Of a stretch of 64,000 bases of DNA, positions 7,292 through 59,700 are shown one piece after another. Below the pieces are notes generated by a model. The model saw only the letters and a program-made list of their open reading frames with translations. It had not been told where the DNA came from and did no database searches. Source of the DNA: Leucocoprinus leucothites. Taxonomy: Eukaryota; Basidiomycota; Agaricomycetes; Agaricales; Agaricaceae. Made by a program: the position numbers and the translations under genes. The stretch is from positions 744,001 through 808,000 of the forward strand of contig JAACJO010000003.1 in NCBI GenBank assembly GCA_013368445.1, given 5' to 3'. How positions within the stretch are numbered: position 1 is the first letter of the stretch; every line of letters begins with the position of its first letter.

Positions 7292-7849
7292 TGTCATGAG
7301 CCAATCCTCAATACCGGCTCATGGTTTGGACTTGGTATATTTTCATGAACTCCTATCCACTTTCACATTTCAGTTACATTGGTTTTTATTGGTCTTTCGC
7401 CTTCAGACTTATTCTGACATCTTCCATCTTATTAATTCATACTGCCTTATCGAAATTTTCTGACAACCGTTTAATAGTAAATTTTATATCTTCTAGCCTT
7501 GTAAAATTTGCGGGCTCCACTTTGATTATTTCTCCATTTACTACTTTGCTTGTTTTCCTTATCCAATCCTATATTCTGCATTGTATATAAGTAGCACAAC
7601 TTTGTATTTGGATTCCTCAGTCTGATAATCAACTTAGTGATACACTACTTTCCTCTGCTCTCTGTTCGTCCTCTGCTCTCTTATCTTGTCTGAAATCCGA
7701 GTCAAGCATCAGTAGTTGGCACAACACATAAGTTGAGGCCACGACCTGCTCCTGCATCTGACAACCGGCTCCTGCCTTACCTCTGTCCCACCTCTGTCCA
7801 TCCAGTCCTAGACATCAGCTCCCCACCCATAGCATTTGCATGCTTAACA
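7292..7849 (+). mobile_element. Solo LTR (558 bp) of the young Gypsy family
   Basis: Begins TGTCATGAGCC and ends GCTTAACA. It aligns over its length with the LTRs at 46549-47107 and 54184-54742. It is flanked by perfect 5-bp duplications, CTGGT at 7287-7291 and at 7850-7854. The TATATAAGTAGCAC promoter core (near 7587) and the AGTCTGATAATC word are conserved. Compared with the young copies it has lost many CpG sites to TpG/CpA, so it is older. No internal region remains, so it formed by LTR-LTR recombination. It sits in the coding sequence of the DUF6589-like gene. Confidence 0.95.
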
Positions 7850-46235: not shown

Positions 46236-46548
46236 TCTGCAAATGCTCCAGCTATGCCTCCTCTAAGGCAAGCAAGTATCATAATGACCTTTTCATCTGC
46301 TGCTTCTATCTTGTTGAACTTGAGGGAGAAGGCCATTGTCCTCCACCAATCTGTAAATCATTTCCTGTTTCCATCAAAGTATCCTGGCTCTGGGACTTTT
46401 GATTTTGCATCAATTGCATTGCTGAGTTCTATTTAGTTGTTTTCTTCAGCCATTGCTTCTTGTTGTGGTAACTGTGCTCGACTGATGCTGAGTGACTGTA
46501 GTTGGGACTGGATTTGTTTGAGCTGTTCTTCTATAGGTGATATGACCA
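46236..46548 (-). pseudogene. Second gag copy, 5' part (interrupted by the young Gypsy element)
   Basis: Minus strand, homologous to 12530-12860: the start near 46453 (MAEENN, then a stop), PEPGYFDGNRK, WWRTMAFSLKFNKIEAADEK, IMILACLRGGIAGAFAE. Its upstream continuation is found at 54743-55005, on the far side of the 8.2-kb insertion, with the shared word GACCA at both edges. Confidence 0.75.
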
Positions 46549-47107
46549 TGTCACGAGCCGGGCCTCAAGTACAGCTGACGGTTTGAACTTGGTAATATTT
46601 TCATGAAATACTATCCGTTCTCGCATATCGGTTACTTCGGTTTTTATCGGTCTTTCACCTTCGGACTTATTCTGACATCTTCCATTTTATTAATTCATAC
46701 CGCCTTGTCGAAATTTTCTGACAACCGTTTAATAGTAAATTTTCTATCTTCTAGCCTTGTAAAATTTGCGGACTCCACTTTGATTATTTCTCCGTTTACT
46801 ACTTTGCTTGTTTTCCTTATCCGATCCTATATTCCGCATCGTATATAAGTAGCACGACTTTGTACTTGGATGGGGCAGTCTGATAATCAACTTAGCGATA
46901 CGCTACTTTCCTCTGCTCTCTGTTCGTCCTCAGCTCTCTTATATTGTCTGAAATCCGGGTCAAGCGTCAGTAGTCGGCACAACACATAAGTTGAGGCCAC
47001 GACCCGCTCCCGTGTCCGAGGACCGGCTCCTGCCTTACCTCTGTCACACCTCTGTCCAACCGGTCCTTGACGTCGGCTCCCTATCCGTAGCGTTTGCGCG
47101 CTTAACA
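46549..47107 (+). repeat. 5' LTR (559 bp)
   Basis: TGTCACGAGCC to GCGCTTAACA. It contains a TATA box (TATATAA at 46842-46848). About 35 bases downstream lies AGTCTGATAAT (46877-46887), the likely start of the R region. Confidence 0.97.
46842..46887 (+). promoter_or_regulatory. LTR promoter core and predicted 5' end of the transcript
   Basis: TATATAA at 46842-46848 is followed 29-35 bases later by AGTCTGATAAT at 46877-46887. The spacing suits a transcription start just before or at this 11-mer, and the 11-mer is the exact reverse complement of the primer-binding region at 47110-47120. The same arrangement is present in the other LTR copies. Confidence 0.6.
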
Positions 47108-47109
47108 GT

Positions 47110-47120
47110 ATTATCAGACT
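47110..47120 (+). promoter_or_regulatory. Primer-binding site, Tf1/sushi-type self-priming
   Basis: ATTATCAGACT starts two bases after the LTR end. It is a perfect 11-nt reverse complement of AGTCTGATAAT near the predicted RNA 5' end. In Tf1 of fission yeast the first 11 nt of the RNA fold back onto the primer-binding site. The sequence does not look like a standard tRNA-complementary TGG-type site. Confidence 0.7.
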
Positions 47121-47154
47121 CAGATTCTACTGTCGCACTCGCACTTCTGTTATC

Positions 47155-48747
47155 ATGGTCAACACCCATACTATCAAGGGCAAGACCTCCACCGTTGCGC
47201 AACCAGAGCGAAAACGCTCTCACACTCCTCCTCCTGTCCCAAGCTCTTCTCGTCTGACCGACGATAATTCTCGTATCAGTATCCGCGCTCGTCGTTCACG
47301 TCGTCTTAATCCCAATCTCCCAGAAACTCCTCGATCTGCTAGTTCTCCTCCACCGCCTCCTCGTCGTTTTCGAAATATCCGTTCTCCCAGAACTCCTGCC
47401 CCACCTGGCGGTCTGCCATCTGACAGAGATCCATCCGATCCCTCGGAACCAGGTGACTCTGATGGTCCAGACTACGCCGATAATCAATCTATGGGCCACG
47501 ACGGCGATGATGAAGACGATGAACCCATCTATAACGGCTCCCCCGGTGGTCCTGGTGACCCCGACGACAATGATCCTGAAGATCCTTCCCACTCCTCCGA
47601 CGATGAGCCTCTTCCTCCTCGACGGGTACCTCATCCCCGAGCTCCCCGACAGGATCCAAACAATGATCGTCTAGCCGATGCCTTGGGTAGGCTCGCTGAC
47701 AATCTCGATCACCAAGCGGCTGCACAAGCCAATCAGACTCGCGTCAATAAGGCTCGCCTCCCAGACACTTTCAGTGGCTCTGACCCTGAAAAACTCAACA
47801 CTTTCCTAATCCAATGCCGTCTATATTTCCGAGCCAACCCCACACAATTCCAGCACGACAATCAGAAAGTCGATTTTGCCATGACCTACCTCACCGGTGT
47901 TGCGCTTGACTGGTTCGAGGTCGGCCTCACTCAGGAAGAACAGGGTGTCTTCCATAACTGGTTCGACGATTGGAATGCATTTGTCCGCGAGCTCCGTACG
48001 CATTTTGGCATTGCCAACCCAAAGGGAGAAGCAGCCGAGATGCTTGATACCCTTCGCATGAAACCGGGTGATAAAATTGCCACTTTCAACGTCGAGTTCC
48101 TCAAACACACCTCTCAACTCGGTTGGAACGACGAGGTCCTCTGCCATCGTTACTACAAGGGACTTCCGAACCGCATCCAAGACCCTCTCAGTACCCGTGA
48201 GCAGGGTAAACCCACTACTTTCGAGGAAATGCATCGCTTGGCCATCGTTTACGACGGACGCTACTGGGAGCGTGACCGTGAACGTGTTCATGCCCGCGCT
48301 GCAGAGAAGGATGCTGCCGATTCTCTGAATCGGAAGCAGCCCAACAAGCCCTCGACCTCCAATCCTTCCAACCCGAATCCATCACGCGGCCAGTCTCAAC
48401 CTGGCAACAACAACAACAACAACAATCGAGGAGGCAACAACAGTAACAGCAACAACAACAATAACCGCAATCAGTCGCAGGCTCCATCAACCAAATCCAA
48501 CACCCCCGCTCCATCCACATCCAGTACCCAACGCCCTATGCCGAAATTCGACCTCTCGAGCAAACTCGGCCAAAATGGCAAACTGACATCCGAGGAGCGG
48601 AAACGACGCCTCGATGAAGATCTCTGTCTATTCTGTGGTGGCAAAGGCCACAAGGTCGAGAATTGCCACAAGAAACAAAATTGGGCCAAGATCCGCAGGG
48701 TCGAAGCGGCTCCGCCCAAGGACTCAGAAAAGAGTCCGGAAAAATAG
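47155..48747 (+). CDS. Gag polyprotein of the young Gypsy element
   Basis: 530 residues, intact; starts at the first ATG after the LTR. Residues 1-200 are Pro/Arg/Ser/Asp-rich and probably disordered (Pro runs, then an acidic DGDDEDDEP stretch). Residues about 205-375 form the retrotrans_gag capsid part (KARLPDTFSGSDPEKLNTFL, VALDWFEVGL, WNAFVRELRTHFG). Residues 400-470 are a low-complexity Asn/Ser/Pro linker encoded by CAACAA repeats. A CCHC zinc knuckle, CLFCGGKGHKVENC, starts at Cys491. The gene ends CCG GAA AAA TAG. Pol overlaps it in the -1 frame. Gag forms the virus-like particle and binds the RNA. Confidence 0.95.
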   Translation: MVNTHTIKGKTSTVAQPERKRSHTPPPVPSSSRLTDDNSRISIRARRSRRLNPNLPETPRSASSPPPPPRRFRNIRSPRTPAPPGGLPSDRDPSDPSEPGDSDGPDYADNQSMGHDGDDEDDEPIYNGSPGGPGDPDDNDPEDPSHSSDDEPLPPRRVPHPRAPRQDPNNDRLADALGRLADNLDHQAAAQANQTRVNKARLPDTFSGSDPEKLNTFLIQCRLYFRANPTQFQHDNQKVDFAMTYLTGVALDWFEVGLTQEEQGVFHNWFDDWNAFVRELRTHFGIANPKGEAAEMLDTLRMKPGDKIATFNVEFLKHTSQLGWNDEVLCHRYYKGLPNRIQDPLSTREQGKPTTFEEMHRLAIVYDGRYWERDRERVHARAAEKDAADSLNRKQPNKPSTSNPSNPNPSRGQSQPGNNNNNNNRGGNNSNSNNNNNRNQSQAPSTKSNTPAPSTSSTQRPMPKFDLSSKLGQNGKLTSEERKRRLDEDLCLFCGGKGHKVENCHKKQNWAKIRRVEAAPPKDSEKSPEK

Positions 48748-51700
48748 AGGGCGACCCTCAGGACTCTGCACAGACTGGGGGTCGCGTTGAGCTCATCTGT
48801 GCACCAGAGAGTCTCCTCCGCCTCAATGCGTCCGCTCTTTCCAATCCGAATTCTCTTATTGCTTCCCTCACTTCTTCTCTCATTTGCTCATCCGATAATA
48901 TCCAATGGATACCGTTTTGTGCTCTCGTTGATTCCGGCTCGACTCATTGCTTCATAGATTCTGATTTCGTCCGCACTCACTCTCTTCCGACTTCGCCTTT
49001 ACCTCCTATCGAGCTTCGCCTATTTGACGGATCGTCAAATAGTTACATTACTGAACTTGTGAACCTTCCTGCTACCTTCTCTACTGGTGAATCTATGACT
49101 ATTGACTTCTATGTCACTCGGCTTGATTCTTCCTGCTCTGTGGTACTTGGACACAACTGGCTCACCCGCTACAATCCGTTGATTGACTGGGTTTCGAGCA
49201 GCATATCTTTCCGATCGCATTTGCAGGATAATCTTGCCCCTTCTGCCCGCGTCGCATCCGCTCCCATAGCGGCTCCTACTTCGTCACCCGCTCCTAGCCC
49301 GACGGCTGACACTCCTCTGAATTCACCATCCTCTGGGACTTCTATGTCTACTCCTGGTATTGCAACAGCTCCTCGCGTTTCTATCATCAACGCTGCTGCA
49401 TACATTCGCGCTTCGCGCCTTCCTGGTTCAGTAAACTTCCGCCTCAATCTCAGCTCGCCTTCCGCTTCCGCCAATTCGGCTCGGTTTTCCAACGAGTCAA
49501 TTGACCTTTCTAAAGTGCCCGACGAATATCATGAATTCGCCGATGTGTTCAGCAAAGCTCGTGCTGACAGCCTTGCACTGCATCGCCCTTACGATCTCAA
49601 AATCAATATTGAAGAGGGTGCTCAACCTCCCGTTGGCACTATCTATTCATTATCTCCATCCGAGCTTGAGTCGCTTTGCGAATTTATCGACGAACACGTA
49701 TCTATTGGATTTATCCGCCCCACTTCTTCGCCTCACGGCGCACCCGTTCTCTTCGTTCGGAAGAAAGACGGTTCATTACGACTTTGTGTCGATTTCCGTG
49801 GCCTTAATCGCATCACCAAGAAGGATCGCTACCCGCTCCCGCTCATCTCTGACCTACTCGACTCTCCTCGCAAAGCCCGCATCTACACCAAGATAGACCT
49901 TCGACACGCTTACCACCTCGTTCGGATCGCTGAAGGAGACGAATGGAAAACGGCTTTCAGGACCCGCTATGGATCCTTTGAATGGCTGGTTATGCCTTTC
50001 GGACTCACCAACGCACCCGCAGCTTTCCAGCGGTTCATGAACGATATCTTTTCCGACCTCCTCGACGTCTGCGTCACAGTCTATCTCGACGACATCCTCA
50101 TCTACTCTGACGACCTCGACACACACAAGAAACATGTTCGAGACGTCCTCAAGCGGCTCTGCAAGCATGGCCTATATGCTAAAGCGGAAAAATGCGAGTT
50201 CCATTCCGATTCTGTCGAATACCTCGGGTATATCCTCTCACCAGACGGTCTCAAAATGTCGGAAGACAAGATCAAAATCATCCAGGATTGGCCTGAACCG
50301 AAGAAAGTCAAAGACATCCAGTCTTTTCTAGGTTTCGCCAATTTCTATCGACGCTTCATTTACAACTATTCCGATATCGTCGTCCCGCTTACGCGCCTCA
50401 CCCGAAAAGCATCTAAGTGGAACTTCGACGAACGGTGTCGCGAAGCCTTCAACTCCCTCAAAGAAGCGTTCACTACTGCTCCCATCCTCACTCACTGGAT
50501 ACCCGACGCCCAGATCATCATTGAGACTGATGCTTCCGATTATGCACTTGCTGCTATCTTGTCCATTGTCGCGGACGACAACGAAGTCCACCCGATTGCG
50601 TTCCACTCCCGCACCTTCAACACGGCCGAGTTAAACTATGACACTCACGACAAAGAGCTCCTTGCTATCTTCGAGGCTTTCCGCACCTGGCGGCATTACC
50701 TTGAAGGAGCCTCACTCCCTATCGATGTTGTTACCGATCACAAGAACCTGGAATACTTTTGCACTACGAAGATTCTAACTCGTCGACAGGCTCGTTGGTC
50801 TGAGTTCATATCACAGTTCAACCTCATCATCCGTTTCCGACCCGGCCGACTTGGAACCAAGCCTGACGCTCTCACTAGACGATGGGACGTCTACCCTAAA
50901 GGGGGGAATAATGGCTACGCTTCGGTCAATCCTCATAATTTCCATCCTGTATTTTCGCATGAACAGTTATCGGCTTCAGTTCGAGCTACTTATTTTTCAA
51001 CTCCTTCCCTTCGCGCTGCCACCATACTAGATCTCGAGAAACTTCATTCTGATATCCTTACTTCGCTCCCTCAAGACCCGATCGCATCCGCTCACATCAC
51101 TCATCCTGAAGGCCGCTGGTCAGTTGATTCCACTGGTTTCCTTCGGCTCGACGACAGGATCTATGTACCCAACGTCAACAATCTTAGACTCAGAGTTCTA
51201 CAATACAAACACGATCACGTCCTTTCTGGCCATTTCGGTCAGAACAAGACCCTCGAACTCATCCGACGCGAGTACACCTGGCCTGATATCCGATCTCAGG
51301 TCAAGGCTTTCTGTAAATCTTGCGTTACCTGTATGCGATCCAAATCTCAGCGCCATAAGCCGTACGGTAACCTCAAGCAACTTCCCATTCCTGAACGCCC
51401 ATGGAATTCGATTTCAATGGACTTCATCGAGAAACTCCCTTCATCCTCTGGCTTTGACACTATCCTCGTTATCGTCGACCGACTCTCAAAACAGGCTGTA
51501 TTCATTCCGACTCACGACACTATAACTTCCGCAGAACTAGCACGGTTATTCGTCATTCACGTATTCTCTAAGCATGGTGTTCCTTCTCATGTCACTTCCG
51601 ATCGCGGTTCAGAGTTCGTCTCACACTTCTTCCGTTCCCTCGGCACGGCTCTGGACATGCGCCTTCACTTCACATCTGGTTATCATCCTGAAGGTGACGG

Positions 51701-52496
51701 ACAAACGGAACGAACTAACCAAACGCTAGAGCAGTACCTCCGCGTTTACTGCAACTATCAGCAGGACAACTGGTCCGACCTCCTCCCACTTGCAGAATTC
51801 GCATACAACAACGCGCCCAGTGCTACCACCGGAATTTCACCCTTCTTCACCAACAAGGGTTATCACCCTAACATTACAGTCCATCCTGAACGCGATATCG
51901 CATCAGCTCGTGCACGCAACTTCGCAGTCGACCTCGATGAACTACACACTACTCTCAAGGCTGAGATAGCCACTGCTCAAGAACGCTACCAACGATCCGC
52001 TGATGCACGTCGGTTACCAGCCCCGGAGTTCAAAGTCGGCCAGAAAGTTTTCGTGAAAGCTAAATTCTTCCGCACTACCCGTCCATCCAAAAAGCTTTCC
52101 GAAAAATATCTCGGTCCATACGAAATTATCGCTCAACCTGGCTCTCACTCGTTTACCCTTCGCCTTCCAGATTCCATGCGCGCTGTTCATCCTGTCTTCC
52201 ACGTTTCCATGCTTGAACCGACCACACCCAATCCATTTTCCGATCGCACTGAACCGGCTCCCGCTGCCGTTGTCATTGACGACGAACCAGAGTATGAGAT
52301 CGCCCGCATCGTAGACTCGAAGATCGATCGACGTCGCGTATGCAAACTTCTTTACAAGGTCATCTGGTTGGGATATGAAGATACTGACGAAGAATCTTCG
52401 TGGTTACCTGCTACCGAACTTACACATGCGGCTGAACTTCTTTTTGATTTCCATTCTGCTTATCCTGACAAGCCTGGCCCACTTCCTTTATCCTAG
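48618..52496 (+). CDS. Pol polyprotein: protease-RT-RNase H-integrase-chromodomain
   Basis: Open in the -1 frame relative to gag from 48618 (after a TGA at 48615) to TAG at 52494. No ATG precedes the protease motif, so it must be made by frameshifting from gag in the 130-base overlap. Numbering from the TTG codon at 48663: protease DSGSTH at about 90-95; reverse transcriptase from about 364 (FVRKKDGSLRLCVDFR) with YLDD at 474-477; RNase H ETDAS with Asp at about 623; integrase H2C2 finger from His850 (HDHVLSGHF, CKSCVTC); integrase core with Asp920 (SMDFIEK) and Asp980 (SDRGSEF), then HPEGDGQTERTNQ; chromodomain from about 1210 (YEIARIVDSKIDRR, VIWLGYEDTDEESSWLP). Order and chromodomain define a Ty3/Gypsy chromovirus. 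All catalytic motifs are intact. Confidence 0.95.
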   Translation, partial: RSLSILWWQRPQGRELPQETKLGQDPQGRSGSAQGLRKESGKIEGDPQDSAQTGGRVELICAPESLLRLNASALSNPNSLIASLTSSLICSSDNIQWIPFCALVDSGSTHCFIDSDFVRTHSLPTSPLPPIELRLFDGSSNSYITELVNLPATFSTGESMTIDFYVTRLDSSCSVVLGHNWLTRYNPLIDWVSSSISFRSHLQDNLAPSARVASAPIAAPTSSPAPSPTADTPLNSPSSGTSMSTPGIATAPRVSIINAAAYIRASRLPGSVNFRLNLSSPSASANSARFSNESIDLSKVPDEYHEFADVFSKARADSLALHRPYDLKINIEEGAQPPVGTIYSLSPSELESLCEFIDEHVSIGFIRPTSSPHGAPVLFVRKKDGSLRLCVDFRGLNRITKKDRYPLPLISDLLDSPRKARIYTKIDLRHAYHLVRIAEGDEWKTAFRTRYGSFEWLVMPFGLTNAPAAFQRFMNDIFSDLLDVCVTVYLDDILIYSDDLDTHKKHVRDVLKRLCKHGLYAKAEKCEFHSDSVEYLGYILSPDGLKMSEDKIKIIQDWPEPKKVKDIQSFLGFANFYRRFIYNYSDIVVPLTRLTRKASKWNFDERCREAFNSLKEAFTTAPILTHWIPDAQIIIETDASDYALAAILSIVADDNEVHPIAFHSRTFNTAELNYDTHDKELLAIFEAFRTWRHYLEGASLPIDVVTDHKNLEYFCTTKILTRRQARWSEFISQFNLIIRFRPGRLGTKPDALTRRWDVYPKGGNNGYASVNPHNFHPVFSHEQLSASVRATYFSTPSLRAATILDLEKLHSDILTSLPQDPIASAHITHPEGRWSVDSTGFLRLDDRIYVPNVNNLRLRVLQYKHDHVLSGHFGQNKTLELIRREYTWPDIRSQVKAFCKSCVTCMRSKSQRHKPYGNLKQLPIPERPWNSISMDFIEKLPSSSGFDTILVIVDRLSKQAVFIPTHDTITSAELARLFVIHVFSKHGVPSHVTSDRGSEFVSHFFRSLGTALDMRLHFTSGYHPEGDGQTERTNQTLEQYLRVYCNYQQDNWSDLLPLAEFAYNNAPSATTGISPFFTNKGYHPNITVHPERDIASARARNFAVDLDELHTTLKAEIATAQERYQRSADARRLPAPEFKVGQKVFVKAKFFRTTRPSKKLSEKYLGPYEIIAQPGSHSFTLRLPDSMRAVHPVFHVSMLEPTTPNPFSDRTEPAPAAVVIDDEPEYEIARIVDSKIDRRRVCKLLYKVIWLGYEDTDEESSWLPATELTHAAELLFDFHSAYPDKPGPLPLS
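50898..50908 (+). promoter_or_regulatory. Candidate central polypurine tract
   Basis: AAAGGGGGGAA in the sequence CCCTAAAGGGGGGAATAATG, between RNase H and integrase. The 3' polypurine tract before the right LTR reads CCCTAAGGGGGGAATACTGT. The near identity of 17 bases suggests a second plus-strand priming site. It also encodes the YPKGGN residues, so protein constraint is an alternative. Confidence 0.45.
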
Positions 52497-52796
52497 ACTT
52501 TATCTCGGCTACGTATTTCCTTTACCGTTTCACGATATCGGCTCACTCGTTCTTTTGGACTTAGACAATTTTTCATACTTTCTTAATTACCGTTTTGTTT
52601 TCACTTACACCCAATAGCCTCATCTCCCTCTCATCCTTTTTCTTACTTCGGATTTCTCCTCACACCTTGTCCCAAGAAAAAATACCATGCAAATTTCAAA
52701 GACGTCCAAAAAAAAGTACGAGATATACATGATGCGATAAACAGACAGAAATCACGATGAACACATGAGCCGAGTGGAAGGACCGGAGGAAACGAC
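52497..52796. other. Non-coding gap between pol and the antisense gene
   Basis: 300 bases between the convergent stop codons of pol and the antisense gene. It should hold the 3' ends of both transcripts. No clear motif was seen apart from a CAAGAAAAAA stretch near 52674. Confidence 0.5.
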
Positions 52797-54054
52797 CTAC
52801 TTACTACCACTCTCATCCTCCTTCTCTCCCTCATTCTCCCCCTCTTCATCCTCTCCCTCATTCCCAGACCCAGCATCCGACGTCTCCGGCACGGTCTTCT
52901 TCTTAGCGGCCAACCTGGCATCCAACTCCGCCCGTGCCTTCTCATGCGCCTCATCGTCCATCACCTTGTCATCAAGGACAAGCCGGTTGTAGAACTCTTC
53001 AAAGTCCTTGGCCAACCCATCCACGACCTTTGTCTGGGACCGGATACTCGACACCATTGCCAAGTGCCGAGTTCCCAACTCGGCCCGGATCCCCTTCAGC
53101 TCCTTGAGAATGGCCGATTGAACGGCGCGGGTCTTCCTCTGCTCGACGATGAGCTCGTACGTTTGCTCATGAGGCTGTTTGTCAGCCTCTGTCGGAACCG
53201 CACACTTCTGCTTTGAAGTATGGCACGGTTCGCACATGTACTTGCCCCTGTGGATGTTGTCAGTTGCTCGGCCGAGTCCAGAAATCGGGAGTCACTCACG
53301 CGTCGCTTTGTTCGGTGCAATTCTTGCCCAAACGCAAGCACCGCCCGCACTCGTTATCTCCGCCCATCTTTATCTTTCCTCCCTTGGCGTCGTAGTTTCC
53401 GCGTTTTCGTAGGGCGGCGGTTTCGTCTCTTCCATCCCCGGCCAAACCGGAGCCAGGCGTCCACAGCGGGTCGTCGTCTTGATCATCCAACTCCGTGAGT
53501 TGATACTTGGAGGGGCCAGCGGCCACACTCCGTTGAATTAGCCTGGCCGTCTCAGCCGGCCCGCTCGTCGGTTTCGCACGAGGTTTTCGAACCCCGTTTC
53601 CTGCCTTCGCATTCTCCGTCGTTTTCTTCTTCTTCGCCAGACTCTCCACTATCTCCACTTCCACCTCCGTCGCTGTTCTCTTCCCTTTCCCCTTCTCTTT
53701 CTCCTGTCTTTCCTTTTCCTTCTTTTCGGCCTCTAACCGAATCCGCTCTGCGAGCTCGGCCTCCTCCTTCTCCCTTTGCAGCCGTGCAGCATCTTCGGCC
53801 TCTTTCCTCTTCCTCTCTGTCTCTTCCGCCTCTCGACGCTTTTTCTCAGCCATCTTCTTCCGTAATTCATCTTTTCTTTTTCGACGTTCCTCCTCCTCGC
53901 GCCTCTTTTTCTCTGCCTCCTCAGCCTCCCTTTTCATCCGTTCTGCCTCCTCGGCCGCTTTGCGATCGTCCTCCTCGTCCATTCGTCGTAGCTCGTCTTC
54001 CAGATCGATATCGGACATCGGGTCGGAGCCTTGAGTGGTGGAGTTGGGCGCCAT
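52797..54054 (-). CDS. Antisense gene: coiled-coil protein with Zn2Cys6-type cluster
   Basis: Two exons, 54054-53300 and 53247-52797, separated by a 52-nt intron (53248-53299; GTGAGT to CCACAG, with an ACTGAC branch-like site). The exons add to 1,206 nt, so 401 residues. Residues about 15-145 are a very charged Glu/Lys/Arg coiled coil (DELRKKMAEKKRREAEETER and similar). Basic stretches follow (KGKGKRT, KKKKTT). The cluster is Cys236-x2-Cys239-x6-Cys246-x10-Cys257-x2-Cys260-x6-Cys267, exactly the spacing of fungal Zn2Cys6 DNA-binding domains, with the intron falling inside it. A helical region (KELKGIRAELGTRHLAMVSS) and an acidic tail end the protein. It lies entirely inside the retrotransposon, opposite to pol. 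Its role is unknown; nucleic-acid binding or control of the element is inference. Confidence 0.85.
53248..53299 (-). other. Intron in the antisense gene (52 nt)
   Basis: Minus strand GTGAGTGACTCC to ACATCCACAG. Splicing joins SDA to GKYMCEPC, completing the six-cysteine cluster. Without splicing the frame ends at TGA right at the donor. Confidence 0.85.
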
Positions 54055-54170
54055 GGTAGATAAAGGGGATTAAGTTGTGAGAAAGCTTAATTTTTCCCTC
54101 AGAGCGGAATTTATACGGAGTTCGAATTGGTTCCCACGATCAAGTCACGTGGCTTCGAGGGCTCAGCCCT

Positions 54171-54180
54171 AAGGGGGGAA
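54171..54180 (+). promoter_or_regulatory. 3' polypurine tract
   Basis: AAGGGGGGAA, three bases before the 3' LTR: the usual place for plus-strand priming. Confidence 0.85.
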
Positions 54181-54183
54181 TAC

Positions 54184-54742
54184 TGTCACGAGCCGGGCCT
54201 CAAGTACGGCTGACGGTTTGAACTTGGTAATATTTTCATGAAATACTATCCGTTCTCGCATATCGGTTACTTCGGTTTTTATCGGTCTTTCACCTTCGGA
54301 CTTATTCTGACATCTTCCATTTTATTAATTCATACCGCCTTGTCGAAATTTTCTGACAACCGTTTAATAGTAAATTTTCTATCTTCTAGCCTTGTAAAAT
54401 TTGCGGACTCCACTTTGATTATTTCTCCGTTTACTACTTTGCTTGTTTTCCTTATCCGATCCTATATTCCGCATCGTATATAAGTAGCACGACTTTGTAC
54501 TTGGATGGGGCAGTCTGATAATCAACTTAGCGATACGCTACTTTCCTCTGCTCTCTGTTCGTCCTCAGCTCTCTTATATTGTCTGAAATCCGGGTCAAGC
54601 GTCAGTAGTCGGCACAACACATAAGTTGAGGCCACGACCCGCTCCCGTGTCCGAGGACCGGCTCCTGCCTTACCTCTGTCACACCTCTGTCCAACCGGTC
54701 CTTGACGTCGGCTCCCTATCCGTAGCGTTTGCGCGCTTAACA
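54184..54742 (+). repeat. 3' LTR (559 bp)
   Basis: TGTCACGAGCC to GCTTAACA, identical to the 5' LTR except for one seen A/G difference near base 30. It is followed by the target duplication GACCA. Confidence 0.97.
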
Positions 54743-55005
54743 GACCAGTACACTGTTGCCTTGTTCTGCTGATTCACTTACTGGGCTGGTGCTTTCTTCT
54801 ACTGAGGCAATTTCTTCTTCTGATTCTGACTGGAACCTTTCTTGATCCAGGTCAGCTTTGATTTGTTCATCTTCTTAGAGTATGCTGGTTACTGTGTGCC
54901 TCTTTGGTACTCTAGTTCTGAGCTGGGGGTACTTCTGTAGTTGACTAATCTTGGCTTGCCCCCTCTATACTTTGTTGCAGGGTGAGTTGATGATGCTTTA
55001 CCAAA
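54743..55005 (-). pseudogene. 5' region of the second gag copy
   Basis: Homologous to 12880-13112 and continuous with 46236-46548 if the young Gypsy element is removed. It encodes the acidic N-terminal stretch of the gag on minus and ends at the TTTGGTAA primer-binding word beside the LTR edge at 55006. Confidence 0.65.
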
Positions 55006-55426
55006 TGTTACAACCTAAGCTGGAACTCAGGCTGTGACAAGTGTGTAAAGACTTGAGAGCAATGAGAGAGCAAAGGGAAGAAGAACAAGTTGGTAAAGCA
55101 TAAGATATTACAGTGTAGCTACAAGGTTTATATACTAGGGGAATGAGTCATAAGGATCTAAGAATAGAAATGGATGTGTAAGCAAGGAGTCATACTGACT
55201 AAGGAAGTGACTAAGAAAACGATGATGGCTGAGTAATGCTATGTGAGGCTGTGTATCTAGGCTGTGCATAATATGAGGAACACTACTATATCAATGTGAC
55301 TATCAGTTTGCTTGGCCAATACAGTCAGATGACTGAACAGTGTGGAAGTAATGTAGCTAAGTAGTAGAATAGCTATGTTGTGGTCTTTGGCATGTGGAAA
55401 TTATGGATAATTTGTCTGGTAACTAG
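55006..55426 (-). repeat. LTR part of the second minus-strand gag element
   Basis: TGTTACAACCTAAGCTGGAA on plus, homologous to 13113-13381 and continuing about 150 bases further until a family B LTR begins at 55427. Confidence 0.6.
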
Positions 55427-56068
55427 TGTTATATATATTGATTATATCTAGCATTTGTTCCATTTACAACATAAAGTCAATATTAGCTTCACTTAAGTAA
55501 TATTGCAATTATATTTTCTCTTGTATTTGTGCTTGTTTTCTTTAGTTTGTTTTGACTTGTTTACTTTGTCTTAATACATTATGACTCATTTTGATAACAT
55601 GTGATTATTAAATATAGTATAGCTATATTTGGACTTATCTTATAACCACATCATATGATCAAAGAAGAACTTCTTTAGAAGAACTAAAGCTTCTTTGACA
55701 GATCATGTCTTATATAGTTTAATTAGAGTTAAGGAAGCTATACACTTCTCTTCTTTCATTAGAAGCCCTTGGTCCTAGTTAATATTAGATATAGACTTGT
55801 ATTGTATATAAGCTGTCAACATCTACCAAGGAGAAATATTTTTTCTACTTGGTTAGGTGGAGACTCAATATGAGCCTTTATCTATACAAAGTTGAATTGA
55901 ACTTAAGCTCTTAAGATCTCAATTACTAAAGTCTTTAACTCTATAATCACTGTATTATACTCTGACTTTGTAAATGACTTTGTCACTTACTAAGAAGGAG
56001 TTCCCTTTGATAAGATCAACTTGATACTTATCATGCCAGCTTAAAACTGGGCTGGTGTCACAATAACA
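55427..56068 (+). mobile_element. Solo LTR, family B copy 4 (642 bp)
   Basis: TGTTATATATATTGATTATA to GTGTCACAATAACA. The flanks are ACTAG (55422-55426) and ACTGG (56069-56073), a 5-bp duplication with one change. It inserted into the LTR of the minus-strand gag element. Confidence 0.88.
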
Positions 56069-56701: not shown

Positions 56702-59700
56702 TCAAATAACTCCAAGCTTAGCTAAAAAACTGACAATTGCAGTGTGTCCCTGTCCATGTGCTAAGTGAAGAGCAGTCCTCCCATGTTTATCTAAATGGAT
56801 ACTGTCAATACTGAGAGCAGTAGACAATATATCTGACTTACCTTGGAAGTTGGGATCTGCCTTGAGATCAGCCAGGACTTTGACAATCTCAAAATGCCCT
56901 TTCTCAGCTGCATAGTGAAGAGCAGTCCTCTTCCAATATAAATCTAAATAGATACTGTGAATACTGAGAGCAGTAGACAACACATCTGACTTACCTTGGA
57001 GGTTGAGGTCTATCTTGAGATCAGCCAGGACTTTGACAATCTCGGTATGCCCATTCTTAGCTGCATAATGAAAAGCAGTCACCCCAGATGAATCTAAATG
57101 GATACTGTGAATACTGAGAGCAGTAGACAATGCATCTAACTTACCTTGGAGGTTGAAATCTGCCTTGAGATCAGCCAGGACTTTGACAATCTCAGTATGC
57201 CCTTTCTCAGCTGCATAGTGAAGAGCAGTCCTCTTCCAATATGAATCTAAACAGATACTATAAATACTGAGAGTAGTAGACAACACATCTGACTTACCTT
57301 GGAGGTTGGGATCTGCCTTGAGATCAGCCAGGGCTTTGACAATCTCAGTATGCCCATTCTCAGCTGCCAAGTAAAGAGCAGTCCCCCCAGATGAATCTAA
57401 ATACATATGGTGAATACTGAGAGCAGTAGACAACACATCTGACTTACCTTGGAGGTTGGGATCTGCCTTGAGGTCAGCCAGGACTTTGACAATCTCAGTA
57501 TGCCCATTCTCAGCTGCATAGTGAAGAGCAGTCCCCCCAGATGAATCTAAATACATATGGTAAATACTGAGAGCAGTAGACAACACATCTGACTTACCTT
57601 GGAGGTTGAGATCTGCCTTGAGATCAGCCAGGACTTTGACAATCTCAGTATGCCCTTTCTCAGCTGCATAGTGAAGAGCAGTCCTCTTCCAATATGAATC
57701 TAAACAGATACTGTGAATACTGAGAGCAGTAGACAACACATCTGACTTACCTTGGAGGTTGGGATCTGCCTTGAGATCAGCCAGGGCTTTGATAATCTCA
57801 GTATGCCCTTTCTCAGCTGCATAGTGAAGAGCAGTCCCCCCAGATAAATCTAAACACATATGGTGAATACTGAGAGCAGTAGACAACACATCTGACTTAC
57901 TCTGGAGATTGAGATCTGCCTTGAGGTCAGCCAGGACTTTGATAATCTCAGTATGCTCTTTCACAACTGCCAAGTAAAGAGCAGTCCACCCATCTGAATC
58001 TAAACAGATGCTGTGAATACTGAAAGTAGTAGATAACACATCTGACTTACCTTGGAGGTTGAGATCTGCCTTGAGATCAGCCAGGACTTTGACAATCTCA
58101 GTATGCCCTTTCTCAGCTGCATAGTGCAGAGCAGTCCTCCTTCCATATGAAACTAAACAGATGCTATGAATACTGAGAGCAGTAGACAATACATCTGACT
58201 TACTCTGGAGATTGAGATCTGCCTTGAGGTCAGCCAGGACTTTGACAATCTCAGTATGTCCTTTCACAACTGCCAAGTAAAGAGCAGTCCTCCCATATTT
58301 ATCTAAACAGATACTGTTAATACTGAGAGCAGTAGACAATGCATCTGACTTACCTTGGAGGTTGAGATCTGCCTTGAGATCTGCCAGGACTTTGACAATC
58401 TCAGTATGCCCATTCTCAGCTGCATACTGAAGAGCAGTCCCCTCAGATGAATCTAAACAGATACTGTGAATACTGAGAGCAGTAGACAACACATCTGACT
58501 TACCTTGCAGGTTAAGATCTGCCTTAAGGTCAGCCAGGACTTTGACAATCTCAGTATGCCCTTTCTCAGCTGCATAGTGCAGAGCAGTCTGATTATCTGA
58601 ACCTAAGCTAGCTGTTCAATATGTGTGGAGGTTGACCCAGCTAGCCAACTTACCTATTGCATTTATCCCTCCCCCAAGCTTTACTAGGAGTCTTACCACT
58701 TGGACCTGCTGGTTCCTTGCTCCAGAGCAGAGTGTTGAGTCGAGTTCACCTTGGGAATAACCAGCCAATGTCAGCTGTAATGAGGGATCTAAATTTCAAA
58801 ACATAAATGTTCTGCTGTATAAGAATAAGACAAAACCCTTGCATACATATAGCCTCCACATCCCTTGCACTCTCAATCAATACCTCTACCACATCCAAGT
58901 GACCCTTCTTAAATGCTATTGTAATTGAAGGTGCTAAGTCAATTAATCAGTATCTTCTCTCTTAATAATAAGTATTGTTTTTACCCATCACACTTTTTTG
59001 TGCACCAGACTTTATGGCATCACGAACTGCCCCCAGCTCCCCCACCTCTGATGCGGCCTTGAGCCTCTCCCCAACCTTCTTTGCACGTCGTTCTAAGAGT
59101 GCTTCTCCAATATCACGCATTGGAATCAAGAGTAGGAGTAGGGCTAATGTCTGTCCGAATGTCCAGTCACCATCGCCTTTTGCCGTCAGACCTTGATTCT
59201 TGCTGATCGCAACTTCGGTATCAGCCAGAAGGACAACATTGATGATAGCCAACATGGCCAACCCAGCTCTCGCGAACCTGAGTCTGGATTCTTGTTTGAG
59301 AGAAAAAGGAAACAAATGACTATAAACCCAAATTGGCGCAGCGAAGAAGCCGATTGGGACGATTAGGTTCAGGCCGGGAATAAGGAGCAGGCTGTATATG
59401 AGAAGAGACCACTCGCGTAGCCCTTGCGAGCCAATCAAGGCTCGTTGGCCCACGACGAAAAGCGAAGCTCCCAGTGAACAAGGTGGGGAGTTGCCAAAAG
59501 CGATGGGTTGCACCCAGAGCCATATTCCGACTGCCGACATGAGGGATAGGTGTGCGGAGCCAATGACCAATACCGGATTCCTCATAGTCTTCTTCATCCG
59601 AGAAACCCAAAACGCTCGTAGGGTCCGTGGGTCTCCACCTTGCTTCATCTCTTCATCTCTTAGCTCGAATGTGTGGTAGGCGTGAAGGATAAAGTATATG

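Follow-up and report, generated by a model that had tools for sequence, protein, structure and literature searches.

The window, i.e. the whole stretch of 64,000 nucleotides that was analysed, contains a Ty3/gypsy chromovirus at positions 46549-54742, recognised by RVT_1, RT_RNaseH, rve and Chromo domains that score above the Pfam cut-offs. On its plus strand lie a 5' LTR (46549-47107), a primer-binding site (47110-47120), gag (47155-48747; Ty3_capsid and Retrotrans_gag in Pfam), pol (48663-52496; protease, RT, RNase H, integrase and chromodomain), a polypurine tract AAGGGGGGAATAC (54171-54183) and a 3' LTR (54184-54742). The gag and pol frames are open, and the two LTRs, which differ at 1 of 559 bases, are flanked by GACCA duplicates of the target site at 46544-46548 and 54743-54747, in agreement with the original prediction of an intact young element.

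Past the pol stop at 52496 and before the polypurine tract, which starts at 54171, the minus strand bears a gene of two exons (52797-54054), whose spliced product has 401 aa. This gene had been predicted to lie opposite pol, between pol and the polypurine tract. The interval and the strand were right, but the gene ends 300 bases past the pol stop and has no overlap with pol. Exon 1 (53300-54054, minus strand) encodes a charged N-terminal helix, a linker and the first half of a Cys6 cluster, while exon 2 (52797-53247, minus strand) encodes the second half, a C-terminal helix and an acidic tail. The 52-base intron between them (53248-53299, minus strand) reads GTGAGT...CCACAG and is positioned within the x10 loop of the cluster, which covers residues 236-267 (53202-53349, minus strand, as reckoned from the exon map).

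Structure and family of the carrier element

Target duplicates of five bases were found in 12 of the 14 copies with both LTRs that were examined, the window element included; L021, a stretch without a 5' LTR in the right orientation, was omitted from this count. The 12 duplicates are all different, hence the insertions are independent. Summed over the 14 copies, 147 of the 150 differences between paired LTRs are transitions, and the CG dinucleotides of the window element are found in other copies as TG (1186) and CA (1078), together exceeding the retained CG (1328). The transition bias and the change of CG to TG or CA are as expected for decay through methylation.

The primer-binding site at 47110-47120 is an exact complement, over 11 bases, of AGTCTGATAAT, which occurs in both LTRs (46877-46887 and 54512-54522). 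This sequence lies 35 bases after the start of a TATATAAG TATA box and is the likely 5' end of the transcript. With the RNA 5' end predicted in this way, self-priming of the Tf1 type may operate in this mushroom chromovirus. The gag and pol frames are different and overlap at 48663-48747, and the production of Pol may need a frameshift. Within pol, AAAGGGGGGAATAA at 50898-50911 resembles a polypurine tract and almost equals the terminal tract at 54171; of the 18 fetched copies in which the pol match extends that far, 16 have it exactly, and we regard it as a possible central polypurine tract.

Other parts of the window hold another LTR of the same family at 7292-7849 (88.6% identical, no partner listed within the window) and a stretch at about 55380-56060 which by eye is like the sequence beyond the sense ORF of an abundant gypsy clade (copy L065, see below) and is probably a solo LTR of that clade. 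A minus-strand open frame of 596 aa at 56702-58492 is made of near-identical repeats that look ankyrin-like.

Predicted protein

The protein has six cysteines only (residues 236, 239, 246, 257, 260 and 267), and their arrangement C-x2-C-x6-C-x10-C-x2-C-x6-C is exactly the one predicted for the spliced antisense gene. We take the spacing rule of the Zn2Cys6 class to be C-x2-C-x6-C-x5-12-C-x2-C-x6-8-C; when six cysteines were placed at random over 401 residues 200,000 times, the Zn2Cys6 spacing never arose. The window protein fits this rule yet misses the gathering score of Pfam Zn_clus (PF00172), with 13.1 bits against a cut-off of 21, so that the proposed Zn2Cys6 label holds for the spacing of the cysteines and not by the Pfam score. 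Of the two half-clusters, the second agrees better with the basic stretch usual in Zn2Cys6 domains. Neither bZIP families nor the Transposase 28 domain (PF04195) were among the Pfam matches of the window protein up to E = 1.

Protein relatives of the antisense product are P0001-P0003, hypothetical proteins D9756_* of Leucocoprinus leucothites found in a search that scored only the best 7996 candidates (those with most shared words), and the jgi protein P0004. The viral contigs scanned held no relative. UniRef lists P0003 under a name that starts with 'Zn(2)-C6 fungal-type domai'; the Pfam scan of P0003 did not reproduce this and gave no Pfam family up to E = 1. An AlphaFold2 model of P0001 (89% identical to the window protein, three sequences) has helices at 15-121 and 272-343, mostly with pLDDT above 75. 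The mean pLDDT of this model is 63.6 and its pTM 0.24, and confidence is low over the cysteine cluster (pLDDT about 44). Among solved structures, searched by sequence, there were eight weak matches up to E = 10, the best at 0.0051, mostly to the charged helices.

Copies of the gene and selection

A DNA search of the fungus's own genome with the antisense gene gave at least 42 matches (40 of 66 candidates scored), and 40 copies were read, window included. An LTR match is present within the fetched stretch in 38 of them, all except L037 and L043, and the gene start is usually 129 bases from the LTR. The gene is intact in start, splice sites and frame in 11 copies and broken in 29, as expected for decayed copies.

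Across the 40 copies, the non-CpG sites with a minor count of at least 4 make up 36 of 309 first, 36 of 326 second and 137 of 298 third codon positions, and 13 of 43 sites in the intron are variable by the same measure. Exon 2, read in the spliced frame with a minor count of at least 2, gives 42 of 149, 37 of 149 and 82 of 150, i.e. an excess at the third position. The reading frame shifts across the 52-base intron, and the codon signature is kept on both sides. Maximum-likelihood fits gave an omega of 0.204 for the antisense gene (7 copies), 0.201 for pol (5 copies) and 0.312 for gag (6 copies); these fits were made without recombination within the antisense gene. Fixing omega at 1 lowered the log-likelihood from -3887.3 to -4020.4 (best kappa tried, 9), a cost of 133 units.

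Pairwise Nei-Gojobori estimates were made for seven of the 11 intact copies, the other four being near-copies of L017, and omega was 0.070-0.286 in 20 of the 21 pairs. The remaining pair, the near-identical L017 and L022, has few changes and an omega of 0.604 [0.18-2.63]. Compared by part over five pairs, the acidic tail is the loosest (0.18-0.55), and the Cys6 part ranges from 0 to 0.30. The six youngest copies (3 LTR differences or fewer) all retain an open antisense gene, and gag and pol are each open in four of them. The substitution pattern indicates that purifying selection acts on both exons in the spliced frame, and by the omega values selection keeps the antisense gene intact about as strongly as the replication enzymes. 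Two of the three expectations on which the original prediction turned, recurrence of the gene in other copies of the family and a dN/dS far below 1, are borne out by these data.

Intron and upstream region

The intron has a length of 52 bases in all 40 copies, and its donor GT has become AT in 11, a change that belongs to the decay described above. The same place was inspected at ten other loci of types A-E (see below). The half-clusters were not found as a pair in three of these, and an intron of 52-54 bases fits in six of the seven readable loci; two of these six also permit another intron length. L051 permits an intron of 47 or 50 bases, and its donor is changed. As the intron is antisense it stays unspliced in the sense genomic RNA, and retrotransposition would therefore be expected to preserve it.

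The antisense gene has a TATA box, GTATAAAT, some 55 bases upstream of its ATG (54109-54116, minus strand). TATAAAT is present in 37 of the 40 copies, and ACCATG around the start is kept in 32. Upstream of the gene is also a palindrome, AGGGCTCAGCCCT (54158-54170, unstranded), the sole match to AGGGCTNAGCCCT within the window. Read in the direction of the gene as AGGGCTGAGCCCT, it adjoins the polypurine tract, and it is exact in 34 of the 40 copies and has at most one mismatch in 39. Four other A-E loci all have TATAAAT, and the palindrome is exact in three of them (L048, L049 and L051) and altered in L052. As both the conserved TATA box and the palindrome lie outside the LTR, the antisense promoter is probably located outside the LTR as well, unlike that of hbz. 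Neither the gene's own TATA box and palindrome nor the cassette exchange reported below was part of the original prediction.

Distribution among chromodomain elements

The genome searches scored the best candidates only, and the locus counts given here are thus lower bounds. A protein search with P0003 gave 109 matches, 48 of which were crossed with the chromodomain matches, the rest being the same places or A copies. The crossing set consisted of these 48 and the 40 A places against 109 of the 112 chromodomain matches, three second fragments having been dropped. Types A-E make up at least 71 merged loci. At 63 of them the opposite strand bears a chromodomain no more than 1.5 kb away, mostly at 300-350 bases; at none was one found on the same strand.

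One chromodomain locus without an A-E match, L050, carries a second antisense type, which we call Z. Its cluster is C-x2-C-x6-C-x8-C-x2-C-x6-C, its C-terminal stretch is coil-like, and the protein matches no Pfam family above the cut-off. Type Z is found at a minimum of 48 merged loci. At 34 a chromodomain lies nearby, with the gene antisense to it at a distance of 284-359 bases, and 14 have no chromodomain close by. The Z gene has an intron of 60 bases, with the donor GTAAGT in five of six other copies and both donor and acceptor in all three examined for both. A second intron of 41 bases in the L050 copy was rejected as an artefact, the copy being broken. Two Z pairs have an omega of 0.31-0.32, and a close pair with few changes has 0.94 [0.33-4.42]. 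When A and Z were compared by hhalign only the Cys clusters aligned (probability 27.6, E 0.00065 for a single comparison), a weak indication of homology between the two gene types. The jgi protein P0004 is of the Z type; it comes from a 3.9-kb contig, has 92% identity over 73% of the query, was called without its intron, and perhaps represents an element outside this assembly.

When A-E and Z are combined, an antisense gene lies within 1.5 kb at 97 of the 109 chromodomain places, which leaves 12 without one at that distance. In five of these 12 a matching gene lies 1.7-4 kb off, a spacing that insertions would cause.

An RT search (best 150 of 457 candidates) separated the clade, with at least 69% identity, from another abundant clade at 45-48%. 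The one copy read from the latter, L065, has instead a sense ORF after pol (L065:435-1796) with cysteine motifs, which is a different accessory gene in the same genome. On the basis of this one L065 copy, the antisense gene is not general to the LTR elements of this genome.

Exchange of the gene between elements

Between the window element and L017, dS is 0.69 for the antisense gene against 0.093 for pol and 0.071 for gag. L011 and L017 are mostly 98-100% identical over gag-pol (lowest 300-base bin 96.3%), against 76.0-90.6% in four gene bins and 95.1-96.3% in the bins of the 3' LTR. By three-way site counts, the foreign stretch covers about 52531-53812 in the window element, 52908-54292 in L012 and 52953-54510 in L011, where the gene-like signal extends to about 54049. 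The breakpoints in the window element would thus lie beyond the 3' end of the gene and inside exon 1. For a set of 11 elements the gene data reject the pol tree (difference 847, AU p 1.06e-55), and the pol data likewise reject the gene tree (difference 161, AU p 1.71e-5). By these comparisons the antisense gene behaves as an exchangeable cassette, the alleles of which have been swapped between element backbones. Template switching in reverse transcription is the ordinary mechanism for such mosaics. It is unlikely that the mosaics come from an assembly artefact, because one and the same mosaic occurs in L011 and L012, two insertions that differ in location and in target duplicate.

Possible functions of the antisense gene

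We consider it almost certain that the antisense gene encodes a protein, belongs to the element and is under selection. The reading of it as non-coding sequence, or as a back-strand frame that is open by chance, has a negligible probability: such frames can stay open by chance opposite biased sequence, and 29 of the 40 copies are broken, but the codon signal with its third-position excess, the omega of 0.20, the frame change across an intron of 52 bases in 40 of 40 copies and the conserved TATA box refute it. A host Zn2Cys6 gene beside or around the insertion, or a recently captured host gene, would account for the spacing of the fungal transcription-factor class and for the UniRef name of P0003, and is nevertheless very improbable. 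In the 14 copies whose two LTRs were both examined the gene lies between them, and it occurs at 97 of the 109 chromodomain places, by which simple adjacency to a host gene is refuted. Eight A-E loci are without a chromodomain within 1.5 kb; five of these were read, and all have an LTR match or upstream sequence of the element. The suggestion of the original prediction that it might be a former host gene has no support so far, as no free-standing host copy is found among the A-E loci read.

As to the role of the protein, we give about an even chance to the reading that it is a nuclear, dimeric, cysteine-cluster regulator which acts on the element's own DNA. The gene itself is best explained as an accessory that belongs to a clade of mushroom chromoviruses, is passed on with the element and is maintained by selection. 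On the regulator reading it would be transcribed from its TATA promoter and the RNA would then be spliced, only the antisense RNA being able to lose the intron. The protein would enter the nucleus and dimerise via its helices, and its Cys6 cluster would bind element DNA, either in the LTR or at the palindrome of its own promoter. Once bound it might tune sense transcription and thereby the activity of the element, as HBZ of HTLV-1 does. We infer the DNA-binding step from the cysteine spacing and the order of the helices only. The alleles may be exchanged by template switching between co-packaged RNAs.

With regard to binding sites, the LTR contains 27 CGG/CCG triplets where 16.3 (sd 3.1) are expected, and gag and pol are without such an excess. 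Only 1 of these 27 is conserved in all 10 LTRs; among the other triplets with CG the share is 3 of 47, and among all triplets it is 293 of 557. This poor conservation gives no evidence of binding sites, and we therefore rejected the CGG triplets of the LTR as such and regard their raw excess as a weak lead.

The protein might instead be an accessory of the element RNA, the capsid or the integration complex, for instance a nuclear import or export factor or a coiled-coil partner of Gag. In the available text of PMC7264820 such roles, including transport of the pre-integration complex, are proposed for the antisense ORFs of plants. The mushroom protein is largely charged helix (15-121 and 272-343 in the P0001 model), a cysteine cluster can bind RNA or protein too, and the Pfam model for DNA binding was missed. 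A separate antisense promoter, beyond the control of the sense transcript, would however be odd for a virion component, and the cysteine spacing is that of a DNA-binding class; we find this role doubtful, though a serious contender. That the protein or the antisense RNA acts as a decoy, immunity or copy-number factor restraining related elements, with alleles diversifying because each backbone profits from a type unrecognised by its rivals, seems to us unlikely. The alleles are indeed far more divergent than some of the carrier backbones, at least two exchanges (the window; L011/L012) have breakpoints around or within the gene, and related backbones carry one or the other of two gene types that differ greatly. 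Template switching and drift would also yield such mosaics, however, and omega is low within type A, with no positive selection seen there.

Comparison with known antisense genes

Antisense genes at this position are known from plants and from Botrytis. The original prediction that LTR elements seldom carry such genes is not supported as worded, given these published cases, and does not hold within the present clade, with its 97 of 109 chromodomain places. For basidiomycetes we found no report of such a gene among the best-matching titles and abstracts of the open-licence literature. The nearest fungal case is brtn (Zhao et al. 2011), described as an additional antisense gene in the Boty-like (BcGypsy1) retrotransposons of Botrytis cinerea (PMC7264820, PMC8365987, PMC4227169, PMC5987419). 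According to the available text, the Gag-Pol of the Boty-like element also has a chromodomain (PMC4227169). By published description brtn is thus likewise an antisense gene of a fungal gypsy element with a chromodomain, in an ascomycete host whereas the host of the mushroom gene is a basidiomycete.

The antisense ORFs of plants lie between pol and the 3' LTR, and DNA binding is suspected for TRP28; gene23 of Grande is described as transcribed from a promoter upstream of the gene and its protein as nuclear (available text of PMC7264820 and PMC11963269). The word 'intron' is absent from the main text of these two papers, which leave the function of the plant ORFs open as far as their text is available. 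As described there, the plant ORFs share with the mushroom gene the position, the strand and the presence in all or most copies of some families, and they belong to other protein families. The TRP28 of the Retand type has Transposase 28 (PF04195), which was not matched in the mushroom protein. Most plant elements with antisense ORFs other than Retand are non-chromoviruses. Retand itself is classed as a non-chromovirus in the text available (PMC7264820, PMC11963269). Fungal Zn2Cys6 factors of the Gal4 type (PF00172) have the same cysteine spacing and a helix soon after the cluster; the mushroom protein, being below the Pfam cut-off, is not classed as a member.

In the deltaretroviruses, hbz of HTLV-1 and the APH genes of HTLV-2/3/4 are described as spliced antisense genes expressed near the 3' LTR, and HBZ as a nuclear regulator with a dimerising bZIP whose gene is driven from within the 3' LTR (PMC10186651, available text). 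The mushroom gene is likewise antisense and near the 3' LTR, and its splicing is predicted from the frames and the conserved intron. In contrast to hbz, with its promoter within the 3' LTR and its bZIP, the mushroom gene has a TATA box outside the LTR and a Cys6 cluster, and the Pfam scan gave no relation between the two proteins.

Within one genome there are 97 chromodomain places that bear such a gene, intact and broken. Its omega equals the value for pol, a palindrome accompanies its candidate promoter, and alleles have been swapped naturally between backbones. The 97 places and the swaps on near-identical backbones make self-regulation by genes of this kind testable. We speculate, with considerable reserve, that the clade encodes its own antisense DNA-binding switch, HBZ-like and independently arisen, which is traded as an allele cassette between backbones, in which case the specificity of self-regulation, and not the replication machinery, would distinguish competing lineages in one genome. 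The clade is a candidate case of convergence between fungal retrotransposons and deltaretroviruses on an antisense regulator, and the maintenance of the gene by selection suggests that the mushroom element supplies a regulator of its own, in the manner of HTLV-1 and its antisense gene.
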